This document shows, in pieces, positions 40,117 through 45,635 of a DNA stretch of 64,000 nt. The notes under the pieces were generated by a model that did not search any database, was not told where the DNA came from, and saw only the letters and a list, made by a program, of their open reading frames with translations. Every line of letters starts with the position of its first letter. The stretch's first letter is position 1. Origin of the DNA: Halomicroarcula saliterrae (GTDB lineage Archaea; Halobacteriota; Halobacteria; Halobacteriales; Haloarculaceae). Both the position numbers and the translations under genes were made by a program. Location: NCBI RefSeq assembly GCF_031624395.1, contig NZ_JAMQON010000002.1, positions 124,001 through 188,000 of the forward strand, written 5' to 3'.

Positions 40117-41538
40117 GTGACACCCTCCGTCTTCGACCCCGGGCTGGAGTCTATCACCGTCGCGGAGACCGAACTCAGCGACGTGGACGGCGAGGCGGGC
40201 GAACTCGTCGTCCGCGGGTACCCGATCGCGGAGCTGGCGGCCAACGCCACCTACGAGGAGGCCGCGTCGCTGTTGCTCTCCGGTCGGCTCCCGCCGGCCG
40301 ACGAGCTGCGGGCGTTCAGGTCGTCGCTCGCCGACGCCCGCCGCCTCCCGGACCCGGTGACGGCGCTGCTTCGGGCGGCGGCCGACGACGCCGACCCGAT
40401 GGACGCGCTGCGGATGGGGCTCGGGGCGACCTCGCTCGGCGTCGACGAGGAGACCCCGAGCGCGGTGGCTCGCCGCGTCGTCGCCGTCACGCCGACCGTC
40501 GTCGCGACGTACTGGCGCGCCCGCGAGGGGCTGGACCCGGTGACACCGGACCCCGACCTCGGGCACGCCGCTAACTACCGCTACATGCTGACCGGCGACG
40601 AGCCGACAACGGCCGAACGGCGGGCGCTGGAGACCCTCCTGACGACGATGGTCGACCACGGGCTGAACCCCTCGACGTTCACCGCCCGCACGGTCGTCTC
40701 GACGGAGTCGGACCTCGTCTCGGCGGCCACCGCGGCCGTCGGTACGCTCAAAGGGCCACGACACGGTGGCAACCTCCGACGCGTCTTCGACCTGCTCCGG
40801 ACGGCCCACGAGGCCGACGACGTGGCGACCGTCGTCGAAGAGCACGTGGACAGGAGCGGGTGGCTCCCCGGCTTCGGCCACCGCGTCTACGACGTCCGTG
40901 ACCCGCGGGCGGCCGTCCTCTCGGCGGCGCTGGAGACGCTGCCGGGCTCGACGAGCGACGCCTTCCGGGCGACGGTCAGGGAACTGGAGGCCGCCGGGAC
41001 GGCAGCGCTCTCCGACCGCCAGTCCCGCCACACCGCCCCGACCGTCGAGTTCTACGCCGTGGCGCTGCTGTACAGCGCGGGCGTCCCGCCGGCGCTGTTC
41101 ACGCCGACCTTCGCCGTCGCTCGCGTGGGCGGCTGGATGGCTCACTGCCTCGAACAGCGTTCCGACAACGAACTGGTCCGGCCGGTCTCCCGGTACGTCG
41201 GTGCGACGGGTCGGTCGTGGACGCCCGTCGAGGAGCGGAGCGTCGACTCGGCCCAGTCGCGCCGCGACGCGGTCGACCCCATCGCCGACCGGCTGTCGAC
41301 GCTCGCCGAGCCGGCGCGCCTGGAGATTCTCCTCGCGCTCGACGAGGCGGAGACGCCGGTCGAGTACTCGACGCTGCGGGCCGCCACCTCTATCGACGAC
41401 AAGGGGCGGTTCAACTACCACCTGCGCCAGCTCCGCGGGACGTTCGTCGCGAACCGCGACGGGGGCTACGCGCTGGGCCAGTCCGGTCGACGCTTCGTCG
41501 ACGCCGTCGTCGACGGCGACTTCCTGCCCGACGACTGA
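40117..41538 (+). CDS. citrate-synthase-family protein fused to winged-helix domain
   Basis: A 473-residue protein. Residues of about 1-375 are a citrate/methylcitrate-synthase fold: KGPRHGGNL (first catalytic His), GFGHRVYDVRDPRA (second His) and APTVEFYAVALL, where the usual Asp is Glu. Residues of about 385-473 form an ArsR-type winged helix (DRLSTLAEPARLEILLALDEA, then RFNYHLRQLRG). The fusion suggests either a citrate synthase that binds DNA or a metabolite-sensing regulator using the enzyme fold. GTG start. The end abuts a palindromic repeat, and a paralogue without the HTH follows. Confidence 0.85.
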   Translation: MTPSVFDPGLESITVAETELSDVDGEAGELVVRGYPIAELAANATYEEAASLLLSGRLPPADELRAFRSSLADARRLPDPVTALLRAAADDADPMDALRMGLGATSLGVDEETPSAVARRVVAVTPTVVATYWRAREGLDPVTPDPDLGHAANYRYMLTGDEPTTAERRALETLLTTMVDHGLNPSTFTARTVVSTESDLVSAATAAVGTLKGPRHGGNLRRVFDLLRTAHEADDVATVVEEHVDRSGWLPGFGHRVYDVRDPRAAVLSAALETLPGSTSDAFRATVRELEAAGTAALSDRQSRHTAPTVEFYAVALLYSAGVPPALFTPTFAVARVGGWMAHCLEQRSDNELVRPVSRYVGATGRSWTPVEERSVDSAQSRRDAVDPIADRLSTLAEPARLEILLALDEAETPVEYSTLRAATSIDDKGRFNYHLRQLRGTFVANRDGGYALGQSGRRFVDAVVDGDFLPDD

Positions 41539-41619
41539 TACTGCCGGCTGTAACAAACTGACGGAATTCGCCGCCCCGGGGTGGCGAATATCGTGCCGGA
41601 CTTACAGCCGGCAGTATGA
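41536..41619. repeat. TGATAC palindromic element, copy 2
   Basis: Perfect 16-nt outer arms ATACTGCCGGCTGTAA (41538-41553) and its complement (41602-41617). The inner stem is ATTCGCC/GGCGAAT around CCCCGGGG. It begins at the TGA stop of the citrate-synthase fusion, just as copy 1 begins at a TGA stop. It shares the nested two-stem layout of 2964-3051. Confidence 0.85.
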
Positions 41620-41693: not shown

Positions 41694-41842
41694 GGAGAAC
41701 GCTCGTTCCCCCCATCGTCACCGATACAGCGGGCCGCCGGGCGGTATTCGCCGGCGTCGTCGTCCCTGTCCCGGATACGTCAAATCCGGTGAAGAAATGG
41801 CGTTCTCCGAGCGCTTAGGGGGCGCTGGCCGCTGGATACCGT

Positions 41843-42976
41843 ATGACCGGACAACAGCTTCGGCCCGGACTGGAGGGAGTCACTGTCGCCGAGACGCGCC
41901 TCAGCGATATCGACGGCGAGGCGGGTGAACTCGTCATCGGGGGCTTTCCCGTCGAGACGCTGGCGACGAACGCCACCTACGAGGAGACGGTGTTTCTCCT
42001 GCTGGAGGACCGACTCCCGTCGGCCGCGGAACTCGACGCGTTCCGCGCGGACCTCGCCTCGCGGCGCGAACTCTGTGAAGAGACCCACGCCGTCCTCCGC
42101 CGCGCCGCCGAGGACGGGGAGCCGGCGATGGACGCGCTCCGGATGGGGCTGGCGGCAGCGACGCTCGACGCCGACACCGACGAGCCCTCCGAGGCCGCAA
42201 AGCGCGTCGTCGCGGTGATACCGACCGTCGTCGCGGCCTACTGGCGCTACCGGAGCGGGGAGGCGCCGGTCGCGCCCGACCCCGAGCTCGGCCACGCCGA
42301 GAACTACCTCGCGATGCTCACCGGTGACCCGCCCGATGACCACGCCGTCCGTGGACTGGAGACCTATCTGAACACCGTCGTCGACCACGGGCTGAACGCC
42401 TCCACGTTCACCGCTCGTACCGTCGTCTCGACGGAGTCGGACCTCGTCTCGGCGGCCACCGCGGCGGCCGGCGCGCTCAAGGGCCCGCTCCACGGCGGCG
42501 CGCCCGGACCCGTACTGGAGATGTTGCGGACCGTCCACGAGTCGGGTGACCCGGAGCGGTACGTCCGGGAGGCCCTCGACGCGGGCGAGCGACTGATGGG
42601 CTTTGGCCACCGAGTGTACCGGGTTCGCGACCCGCGTGCCGAGGTGCTGTCGACCGCCGCCGAGCGGTTCTACGCGGCGGCCGCCGAGACCGACTTCTAC
42701 GACACCGTCGAGCAGTTCGAGACGGTGGCGCTGGACCTGCTGGCCGACCACAAACCCGACCGACGGCTGGCGACGAACGTGGAGTTCTACACCGCCGCCT
42801 TGCTCCACGGCGTCGGCGTCCCGCGAGCGCTGTTCACCGCGACGTTCGCCGTCGCCCGGAGCGGCGGCTGGATGGCCCACGGGCTCGAACAGCTGGCCGA
42901 CAACCGGCTGGTCCGGCCGGTCGGGCGCTACGTCGGAACGCGTGACCGCTCGTGGACGCCGGTCGAGCAGCGGTGA
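41843..42976 (+). CDS. citrate-synthase-family enzyme
   Basis: A 377-residue protein with KGPLHGGAPG and GFGHRVYRVRDPRA catalytic His motifs and ATNVEFYTAALL (Glu where Asp is usual). Its length is that of archaeal citrate synthases. It is a clear paralogue of the upstream fusion protein (shared SDxDGEAGELV, DHGLN and STESDLVSAATAA blocks). Citrate or 2-methylcitrate synthesis from acetyl- or propionyl-CoA and oxaloacetate is expected, but which one cannot be told. Confidence 0.85.
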   Translation: MTGQQLRPGLEGVTVAETRLSDIDGEAGELVIGGFPVETLATNATYEETVFLLLEDRLPSAAELDAFRADLASRRELCEETHAVLRRAAEDGEPAMDALRMGLAAATLDADTDEPSEAAKRVVAVIPTVVAAYWRYRSGEAPVAPDPELGHAENYLAMLTGDPPDDHAVRGLETYLNTVVDHGLNASTFTARTVVSTESDLVSAATAAAGALKGPLHGGAPGPVLEMLRTVHESGDPERYVREALDAGERLMGFGHRVYRVRDPRAEVLSTAAERFYAAAAETDFYDTVEQFETVALDLLADHKPDRRLATNVEFYTAALLHGVGVPRALFTATFAVARSGGWMAHGLEQLADNRLVRPVGRYVGTRDRSWTPVEQR

Positions 42977-44216: not shown

Positions 44217-45635
44217 TCACTGACTCAGACCGCGTTCCAGCACCGAGAGAACGTCCGGCCAGTGCTCGCGGGCCGCCGTGGCGTTCGCCGCCGGCGAGCC
44301 ACCGAGCACCAGCGGCCCGACCTGCGTCGAGCCGTAGGTCGGGGTGAACGGCGGCGTGATGGAGTGGCCGGCACCGTCGTACACCGTGAGGTCGAACGCG
44401 TAGTCGTACTCCGAGCCGTCCAGCCGGTCGGTCGCGAGCCGGCTGTATCGCGGGCTGTTCCAGAGCCGGTCGTCGCTGCCGGCGACGAACTCGACGGGTC
44501 CGTCGATGCGCTCGACCGGGATAGTCGCCGCCTCGACCGTCGACGCGGCGGCGGCCTCGAAGCCGTCGCCGTAGTACGCCCGGCCGTTCGACATCGTCGG
44601 CTGGCGCTCGGGGTAGGGGATGTACGGAACGGGCTCGCCGTCTATCGTCCACGAAGAGGCGTCCGGCGCCTCGCCGAGGGACTCGATGCCCTCCCAGACC
44701 AGGCCGCCGCCGGAGACGCTCACGACCGCGCCGACCACATCGCTGTTGGCCCCCGAAAGCAGCGCCAGTTCCGCCCCCTTCGAGGCGCCGTACAGCCCGA
44801 CCTGCTCGCCGGCGACGCGGTCGTTCGCGGCCAGGGTCTCGCAAGCCCGGACGACGTACTCCACGGGGACCTCGACGAGCGTCTCCGGAACCGGTTCGGG
44901 TTCGCCGAAGTACTGCAGGCTCGCGGCGACGAACCCGTTGGCGGCCAGCAGGCGTGCCGGCCCTCGCAGCTCCCGCGGCTGGGAGCCGTGCAGGAGCACG
45001 ACGCCGGGTGCCGGACCGTCCGACGGTGGGTAGTGGACCGTCCCGGCGAACTCGTCGCCCAGTGGTTCCTGTTCGACGGACGGGAGCACGCGCTCGGTCG
45101 TCGTCTCGGCGAGCGCCCTGCCCTGTGTGTCGGTGACCGTAATCGTCACCTCGTGGGTCCGGAGTGGGAACAAGGCCCGCCGAGCGGCGAGGTCCGTCTC
45201 CATGGCCCAGAACAACCCCATCGGGTCGGCGTCGTCGTAGTCGCCGGCGACGGGCGACTGTGAACCGAGTGTGACCGTCCCGCCGTCACCGACGGCGAAC
45301 GTAGCGGAGGACGACCAGTCGACCGGACCGTCGGGTCCCGGTGTCGACGTCGCGGCTTCGACGGACACCCGTTCGCCGGGTGGCAACCCGGACAGCGTCG
45401 GGGATATCGACTCGTCGATGCGCGCGGTCGCGGGCACTTCGATAGCGGCGTCCGCAGGGTCGTTTCCCGTCGGGGTCCGTGGGCTGTCGGTCCGAGCGTC
45501 GTCCGTGGCCGTGCCGGTGTCGGACTCGTCCCCGAGGCCGCCACAGCCGGGAAGCGTGCCGAGACCGGCGGCCGCCGCCGCTGTGAGCAGTCGACGGCGG
45601 CCAATCAGCGGAGGGAACTGATTCTTATCCGTCAT
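44217..45635 (-). CDS. Tat lipoprotein, acyl-CoA thioesterase/BAAT-type hydrolase
   Basis: A 472-residue exported hydrolase. It has a Tat signal (GRRRLLTAAAAAGLG), a lipobox TLPGC (Cys about residue 31) and a Thr/Asp-rich spacer. A BAAT N-terminal beta-domain (about 65-185) is followed by an alpha/beta-hydrolase domain. Catalytic residues visible are Ser in GLYGASKGAEL, Asp in AGSDDRLW and His in GAGHSI. It likely cleaves an ester or thioester outside the membrane. Secretion of this family is unusual. Confidence 0.85.
   Translation of the reverse strand: MTDKNQFPPLIGRRRLLTAAAAAGLGTLPGCGGLGDESDTGTATDDARTDSPRTPTGNDPADAAIEVPATARIDESISPTLSGLPPGERVSVEAATSTPGPDGPVDWSSSATFAVGDGGTVTLGSQSPVAGDYDDADPMGLFWAMETDLAARRALFPLRTHEVTITVTDTQGRALAETTTERVLPSVEQEPLGDEFAGTVHYPPSDGPAPGVVLLHGSQPRELRGPARLLAANGFVAASLQYFGEPEPVPETLVEVPVEYVVRACETLAANDRVAGEQVGLYGASKGAELALLSGANSDVVGAVVSVSGGGLVWEGIESLGEAPDASSWTIDGEPVPYIPYPERQPTMSNGRAYYGDGFEAAAASTVEAATIPVERIDGPVEFVAGSDDRLWNSPRYSRLATDRLDGSEYDYAFDLTVYDGAGHSITPPFTPTYGSTQVGPLVLGGSPAANATAAREHWPDVLSVLERGLSQ

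Follow-up and report, generated by a model that had tools for sequence, protein, structure and literature searches.

A conserved fusion of a CitA-type citrate synthase with a winged helix in Halobacteria, a probable one-component regulator of the neighbouring paralogue

Results and Discussion

A citrate synthase and a winged helix are encoded in one reading frame

The window, by which we mean the whole 64-kb stretch of DNA that was analysed, contains two neighbouring citrate synthase (CS) genes on the forward strand. The first (40117-41538, +) starts with GTG according to the ORF listing of the window and codes for 473 residues; its assignment is based on the ORF, Pfam and homologues. A CitA-type CS domain (residues 9-356; 40141-41184, +) is followed by a C-terminal winged helix-turn-helix (HTH) domain of the family DUF7347 (residues 391-464; 41287-41508, +). 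The second gene (41843-42976, +), named partner in the following, codes for an unfused CitA-type CS of 377 residues, as judged by its ORF, Pfam, the NCBIfam model NF009005 and a residue table; it is presumed to be the regulated enzyme. A preliminary description of this DNA had proposed a CS fold and a winged helix in a single reading frame, both catalytic histidines being kept, and a paralogue without HTH coming next. All of this was recovered. The Citrate_synt match (PF00285) is complete with 345 bits, the DUF7347 match (PF24038) reaches 78.3 bits at a Pfam gathering cut-off of 27.6, and the frame extends exactly from 40117 to 41538. The residue table lists the catalytic residues His216 and His255 as retained, together with Glu311, Arg264, Arg336 and Arg355, and Pfam detects a CS domain alone in the partner. 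By the Pfam assignments, a sensor-type domain and a DNA-binding domain reside in one chain of the fused protein.

Among solved structures, the fused CS domain comes closest to the B. subtilis enzyme CitA (PDB entry 2c6x), both in a search with a sequence profile (355 bits, next 318) and by fold for the full-length AlphaFold2 model (mean pLDDT 73). Like the window proteins, all six bacterial CitA-type enzymes examined have a Glu at the position of Asp375. CitA differs from the fused protein in being devoid of a DNA-binding domain. In B. subtilis, citA is adjoined by a separate gene for a LysR-type regulator, CitR. In the tree described below, the fused CS domains fall into the CitA-type clade alongside bacterial CitA and apart from haloarchaeal CitZ (split 0.996). 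Neither CS of the window reaches the equivalog cut-off of 550 for haloarchaeal CitZ (NF041301), the scores being 337 and 374 bits. Of the two, the partner (343.7) exceeds the NF009005 cut-off of 332, and the fused protein (275.6) stays below it. The source genome has three CS genes; the third (L001) lies on another contig and groups with haloarchaeal CitZ in the tree. The protein encoded slightly downstream of the pair, at 44217-45635 (-), belongs to the acyl-CoA thioester hydrolase/BAAT family according to its Pfam domains, Bile_Hydr_Trans and BAAT_C.

In the full-length model, the winged helix spans approximately residues 379-466 and has the element order helix-helix-helix-recognition helix-two strands-helix. 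The 50 best fold matches listed for this model are citrate synthases alone, and the HTH was therefore modelled separately (pLDDT 88.8). The HTH-only model matches QsrR (4hqm; Z 11.3, 89 residues, rmsd 2.6), SmtB (1r22; Z 10.9, 91 aligned residues, rmsd 2.7) and CzrA (6cda; Z 10.9, 89 aligned residues, rmsd 2.5), and these scores tie with those of many ArsR, HxlR and MarR proteins. A Foldseek search with the same model gave no match at E ≤0.001, the best being NolR with 0.0093; our statement on the fold is based on the Z-scores. The profiles of the ArsR/SmtB family stay below their cut-offs (HTH_20, 17.8 of 27; NCBIfam HTH_metalloreg, 14 of 55). The label "ArsR-type" given in the preliminary description is thus appropriate for the fold, which is the ArsR/HxlR/MarR winged helix, but not for the family, which is DUF7347. 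An alignment shows that the recognition-helix stretch SIDDKGRFNYHLRQLR is nearly invariant; the domain as a whole was delimited by PF24038, this alignment, the model and the fold matches. The C-terminus of the window's fused protein is a few residues shorter than that of most relatives. The source genome also contains two haloarchaeal DUF7347-DUF7351 genes (L034, L035), whose products belong to the same winged-helix family and carry a DUF7351 domain instead of a citrate synthase.

All fusions found are from Halobacteria, and at every intact locus an unfused paralogue follows

After contigs and coordinates had been matched across overlapping searches, 19 distinct fused loci proved intact and one carries an internal deletion; all of them are from Halobacteria. 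A class-wide sample yielded a full-length fused match in at least 10 of 391 genomes, a figure from which very divergent fusions may be missing. Three family searches, which overlap with this sample, gave eight intact fusions and an internally deleted one in 125 genomes, a fusion in 8 of 146 genomes of the window's own family, and in 2 of 170 genomes of a third family. A pattern-based scan of named genomes, in which relatives can be missed, returned 26 loci with nine intact fusions and one deleted fusion, again exclusively from Halobacteria. The intact ones are from Natrinema gari, Halorientalis marina, Salinibaculum litoreum, Halovivax, Halogranum rubrum, Natrialba, two YIM strains and Actinarchaeum halophilum. 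The concern that the fusion might be an assembly or annotation artefact without conserved fused orthologues is answered by these 19 intact loci and by the single clade described below.

An unfused paralogue is located downstream on the same strand at all 19 intact fused loci; in genome G032, two predicted ORFs lie between the fused gene and the partner. Further recurrent neighbours at the fused loci were found only among close relatives of one genus. Ten neighbour proteins of unfused homologues, searched for hints of a pathway, belong to unrelated Pfam families or to none.

In Natrialba swarupiae (L073, 8001-8792; L170, 4565-5356), the CS domain of the fusion has suffered a large internal deletion, the HTH is intact, and no partner was found in the stretch fetched around the gene. 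In genome G460 (L172, 4026-5200), a fragmented assembly, the partner gene has an in-frame stop, which may be a sequencing error or a sign of decay.

The fused copies form one clade and diverge faster than their partners

A tree was calculated from 68 citrate synthases, nine sequences (fragments, a truncated duplicate and distant matches) having been left out. The 15 fused CS domains constitute one clade with support 1.0, which sits within the haloarchaeal CitA-type group; the nearest bacterial group in this tree is the Bacillus-type CitA. The node attaching the fused clade is weak (0.195). The partners do not form one clade, and the unfused homologues of fusion-less genomes are interleaved with them. 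Distances among fused copies correlate with those among partners (r 0.858, reached in 0 of 5000 permutations), as is to be expected for co-inherited genes, and a shared species history gives the same signal. In each of the 105 genome comparisons, divergence proceeds faster in the fused copy than in the partner.

In the sister species G368, the syntenic locus holds a single unfused gene (L047, 7575-8708). Its first 100 residues share 71 identities with the fused copy and 51 with the partner, whereas residues 101-375 share 217 identities with the partner and 159 with the fused copy. Because the front of the gene matches the fused copy better and the remainder the partner, the tandem pair has apparently collapsed by recombination into a chimeric gene, and the HTH was lost. 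Genome G424, which belongs to the same genus, still has the pair.

The active site is largely retained and the winged helix is under strong selection

All 15 fused proteins of the alignment possess the two catalytic His as well as the three substrate Arg; His181 is kept in 14 and lost in one. Arg256, which follows the second catalytic His, is lost in 13 of the 15 and kept in two, but it is present in all 53 other sequences (15 partners, 24 unfused homologues, 8 CitZ and 6 bacterial CitA-type enzymes). The position which we take to be equivalent to Asp375 of the pig-heart enzyme is occupied by Glu in five and by Asp in ten of the fused proteins; the roles of the other residues are likewise presumed. 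Glu is found there in 15/15 partners, 24/24 unfused haloarchaeal homologues and 6/6 bacterial CitA-type enzymes, and in none of the eight haloarchaeal CitZ, which all have Asp. The preliminary description had stressed this residue. Both proteins of the window indeed contain it (VEFY motif), but as judged from the alignment it marks the CitA-type family rather than this pair in particular, and most fused proteins have Asp.

For three genome pairs, dN/dS values of 0.05, 0.08 and 0.10 were determined for the HTH, of 0.13, 0.26 and 0.18 for the CS part of the fused protein, and of 0.16, 0.20 and 0.15 for the partner. By these estimates, purifying selection in the three pairs computed acts more strongly on the winged helix than on the CS part. 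A protein that evolves faster but largely preserves its oxaloacetate/CoA pocket is consistent with a sensor, and also with an enzyme of altered kinetics.

A palindrome upstream of the partner accompanies the fusion

The spacer between the two genes of the window contains two candidate operators. The distal one, GGAGAACGCTCGTTCCCC (41694-41711), is the only match to GGRGAAN6TTCYCC in the whole 4.2-Mb source genome. The proximal one, GAAGAAATGGCGTTCTCC (41791-41808), immediately precedes the presumed BRE/TATA region of the partner gene. They are the only sites in the window with at most one mismatch; shuffles of the window that keep dinucleotides gave a mean of 0.09.

The 18-bp palindrome GGAGAA-N6-TTCTCC, or a near form of it, occurs upstream of the partner in 19/19 pairs. 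The motif was first spotted by eye in 14 spacers between fused gene and partner, all of which had the palindrome or near forms, so that only the four loci found later constitute an independent test; in these four, an exact relaxed palindrome precedes the partner each time. With one mismatch allowed within 260 nt upstream, it was detected for 15/15 partners, 0/24 unfused homologues (1/24 at two mismatches), 0/8 CitZ and 0/6 bacterial genes; L071, L073, L075-L080 and one truncated duplicate were left out. Shuffled partner regions, in which only the base composition was kept, gave a mean of 0.12 of 15 at up to two mismatches. As the unfused homologues are interleaved with the partners in the tree, it is the fusion with which the motif is associated, rather than the lineage of the enzyme. 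Upstream of the fused genes themselves, it was found at the same threshold in 0/15 cases; autoregulation by way of the same site is therefore not seen.

On the genomic scale, the 15 fused genomes contain the motif GGRGAAN6TTCYCC at 27 places, of which 15 are at the pair and 12 elsewhere. It is found at the pair in 14 of these genomes; G123 has no such place because its site has one mismatch. In the four newly found fused genomes, 4 of 7 places are at the pair, one in each genome, and 12 fusion-less genomes contain four places altogether. Six of the 12 places lying elsewhere were inspected: four are within predicted genes and two are intergenic. Several loci possess two sites, one near the partner and abutting the presumed BRE/TATA, the other approximately 85-190 bp further upstream. 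Counted from the start, the proximal site begins at -50 to -62 in most loci, and at -85, -110 and -146 in G032, L059 and G424, respectively. By strong comparative evidence, the palindrome is a likely operator at the promoter of the partner.

An independent DUF7347-DUF7351 gene of genome G143 (L125, 354-1475) has an exact GGAGAA-N6-TTCTCC just behind it, which is one of the two intergenic places mentioned above. This single case suggests that DUF7347 domains might read such palindromes by means of a shared recognition code.

A further inverted repeat in the same spacer was considered as an operator or terminator. Its arms (41539-41553 and 41602-41616) belong to a short repeat element of approximately 78-80 bp with perfect terminal inverted repeats of 15-16 bp, which lies at the stop codon of the fused gene (41538-41617). 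It was rejected as an operator because the genome contains two more copies with paired arms, on contig C5, and a single exact arm at three places.

The fused protein is probably a local regulator with a citrate synthase as sensor

Known citrate synthases are dimers and undergo a large domain closure upon substrate binding. The large closure would make the enzyme a natural allosteric switch. Based on the sequence data, the fused protein is probably a dedicated local one-component regulator that uses a duplicated CitA-type CS as metabolite sensor and acts on the partner via the palindrome. It would have arisen when such a duplicate acquired a winged helix. The CS core would serve as the ligand-sensing and dimerising part, and the two C-terminal winged helices of the dimer would bind the 18-bp palindrome upstream of the partner and set its transcription. 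The ligand in the retained active site might be oxaloacetate, an acyl-CoA or (methyl)citrate, that is, a substrate or the product of the partner reaction. Its binding would close the CS domains, move the winged helices and change their spacing. From the sequence comparisons, we infer both the binding of the palindrome by the fusion and its control by a ligand. A site just upstream of BRE/TATA is a usual position of an archaeal activator. Since the proximal site is just upstream of the presumed BRE/TATA, we slightly favour substrate-dependent activation over repression. The varying distance of the proximal site, the motif places away from the pair, the absence of the motif upstream of the fused gene and the active-site deviations of some fused proteins weigh against this reading of the fusion.

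The preliminary description had already suggested a regulator derived from a citrate synthase. The conserved fusion with its single clade, the purifying selection on the HTH and the palindrome tracking the fusion argue well for this idea; the emphasis on the Glu is not supported.

An alternative is a bifunctional trigger enzyme, a working citrate or methylcitrate synthase that is at the same time a DNA-bound regulator and reports flux and not only concentration. The two catalytic His, a Glu or Asp at the acidic position and the three Arg, all retained in 15/15 fused proteins, are compatible with catalysis, as is the purifying selection on the CS part. However, the fused copy outpaces the divergence of the partner in 105/105 comparisons, and 13/15 fused proteins lack Arg256, which none of the 53 others has lost. 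Moreover, with three CS genes in the genome, a further enzyme beside the canonical CitZ and the partner would be redundant for flux. We regard a trigger enzyme as possible but rather doubtful.

It is unlikely that the winged helix is merely a tail for protein interaction or dimerisation, by which a heteromer of fusion and partner tunes activity while the palindrome is owned by another regulator. HTH folds can mediate protein contacts, and the presence of both genes at 19/19 loci makes mixed dimers of these presumably dimeric enzymes conceivable. Such a tail does not explain why the palindrome tracks the fusion, being absent at up to one mismatch from all 24 fusion-less homologues, nor why the DUF7347-DUF7351 gene of G143, admittedly one case, has the exact palindrome as well. 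That the protein is just an accessory citrate synthase whose HTH tail is decaying or accidental, due to drift or to an artefact of assembly, might fit the patchy distribution, the collapse in G368 and the internal deletion in one Natrialba genome, but is highly implausible and already contradicted by the conservation data: 19 intact loci spread over four families as defined by the search tool, a recognition stretch that hardly varies, an HTH under strong purifying selection and a palindrome conserved at the partner.

If the regulator reading is correct, the fold of a TCA-cycle enzyme would act as the sensor of a transcription factor, one for which a candidate operator is at hand together with one clear target. 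Likely direct sensors of oxaloacetate, acetyl-CoA or propionyl-CoA would then exist in archaea and, by the parallel described below, also in Proteobacteria. A regulatory role would furthermore offer a reason why some genomes have several citrate synthase genes.

Related systems and a parallel in Proteobacteria

One-component regulators derived from enzymes are well established, examples being BirA, PutA, MocR/GabR, ROK proteins and haloarchaeal GfcR. Like the fusion, they combine an enzyme fold with a DNA-binding domain and sense the ligand of the enzyme; to our knowledge, none of them has a citrate synthase fold as sensor. In the open-licence literature of PubMed Central, we found no description of a transcription regulator derived from a citrate synthase. 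Caulobacter CitA is reported to be a citrate synthase with a catalysis-independent regulatory role acting on the cell cycle (PMC7083601). In the same study, growth of an E. coli gltA mutant is rescued by CitB but not by CitC, the two having the consecutive locus numbers CCNA_03757/03758 (PMC7083601). In contrast to the haloarchaeal fusion, the passages on these proteins mention no helix-turn-helix (PMC7083601).

On proteobacterial plasmids, Pfam identified a MerR-type HTH (HTH_17/MerR_1) followed by a CS domain in four proteins; such proteins are mostly annotated as "citrate synthase family protein", a name that presents them only as citrate synthases. For the A. fabrum fusion, HTH_17 scores 26.5, just under the cut-off of 27, and MerR_1 passes (25.3 of 21.6). 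The fusions of A. fabrum, A. vitis and Chelatococcus (L097, L100, L106) are divergent from an unfused CS gene, the domains of the A. vitis pair having been taken from similarity. The unfused CS of A. fabrum is of the Glu type, with the motif TNVEFY. The three divergent promoters have the palindrome TTGATT-N5-AATCAA in common.

As in Halobacteria, the proteobacterial fusion (A. fabrum pAt, Chelatococcus pTAD1) thus joins a CS paralogue to a DNA-binding domain, is found beside an unfused CS and has a palindrome in the promoter. In contrast, its HTH is of the MerR type and N-terminal, the gene order is divergent and the palindrome is a different one. The type of the HTH and the end to which it is attached suggest independent origins of the bacterial and the haloarchaeal fusions. 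We did not find a function for the proteobacterial fusions in the open-access literature. It is rather likely that a citrate synthase became a metabolite-sensing transcription factor at least twice, in Halobacteria with a C-terminal DUF7347 domain and in Proteobacteria with an N-terminal MerR-type domain, each serving an accessory CS via a palindromic operator. Together they would constitute a new class of one-component regulators reading the oxaloacetate/acyl-CoA node.

Other bacterial fusions adjoin genes for a CoA transferase, a thiamine-pyrophosphate enzyme, a copper-related protein, a 2-hydroxyacid dehydrogenase or other genes and are without a CS neighbour; the bacterial family therefore serves more than one kind of target. 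Further plasmid-borne "citrate synthase family" genes (L096, L103, L105) are transcribed divergently from genes for a CoA transferase or a 2-hydroxyacid dehydrogenase, and their products are possibly local regulators of carboxylic acid pathways.
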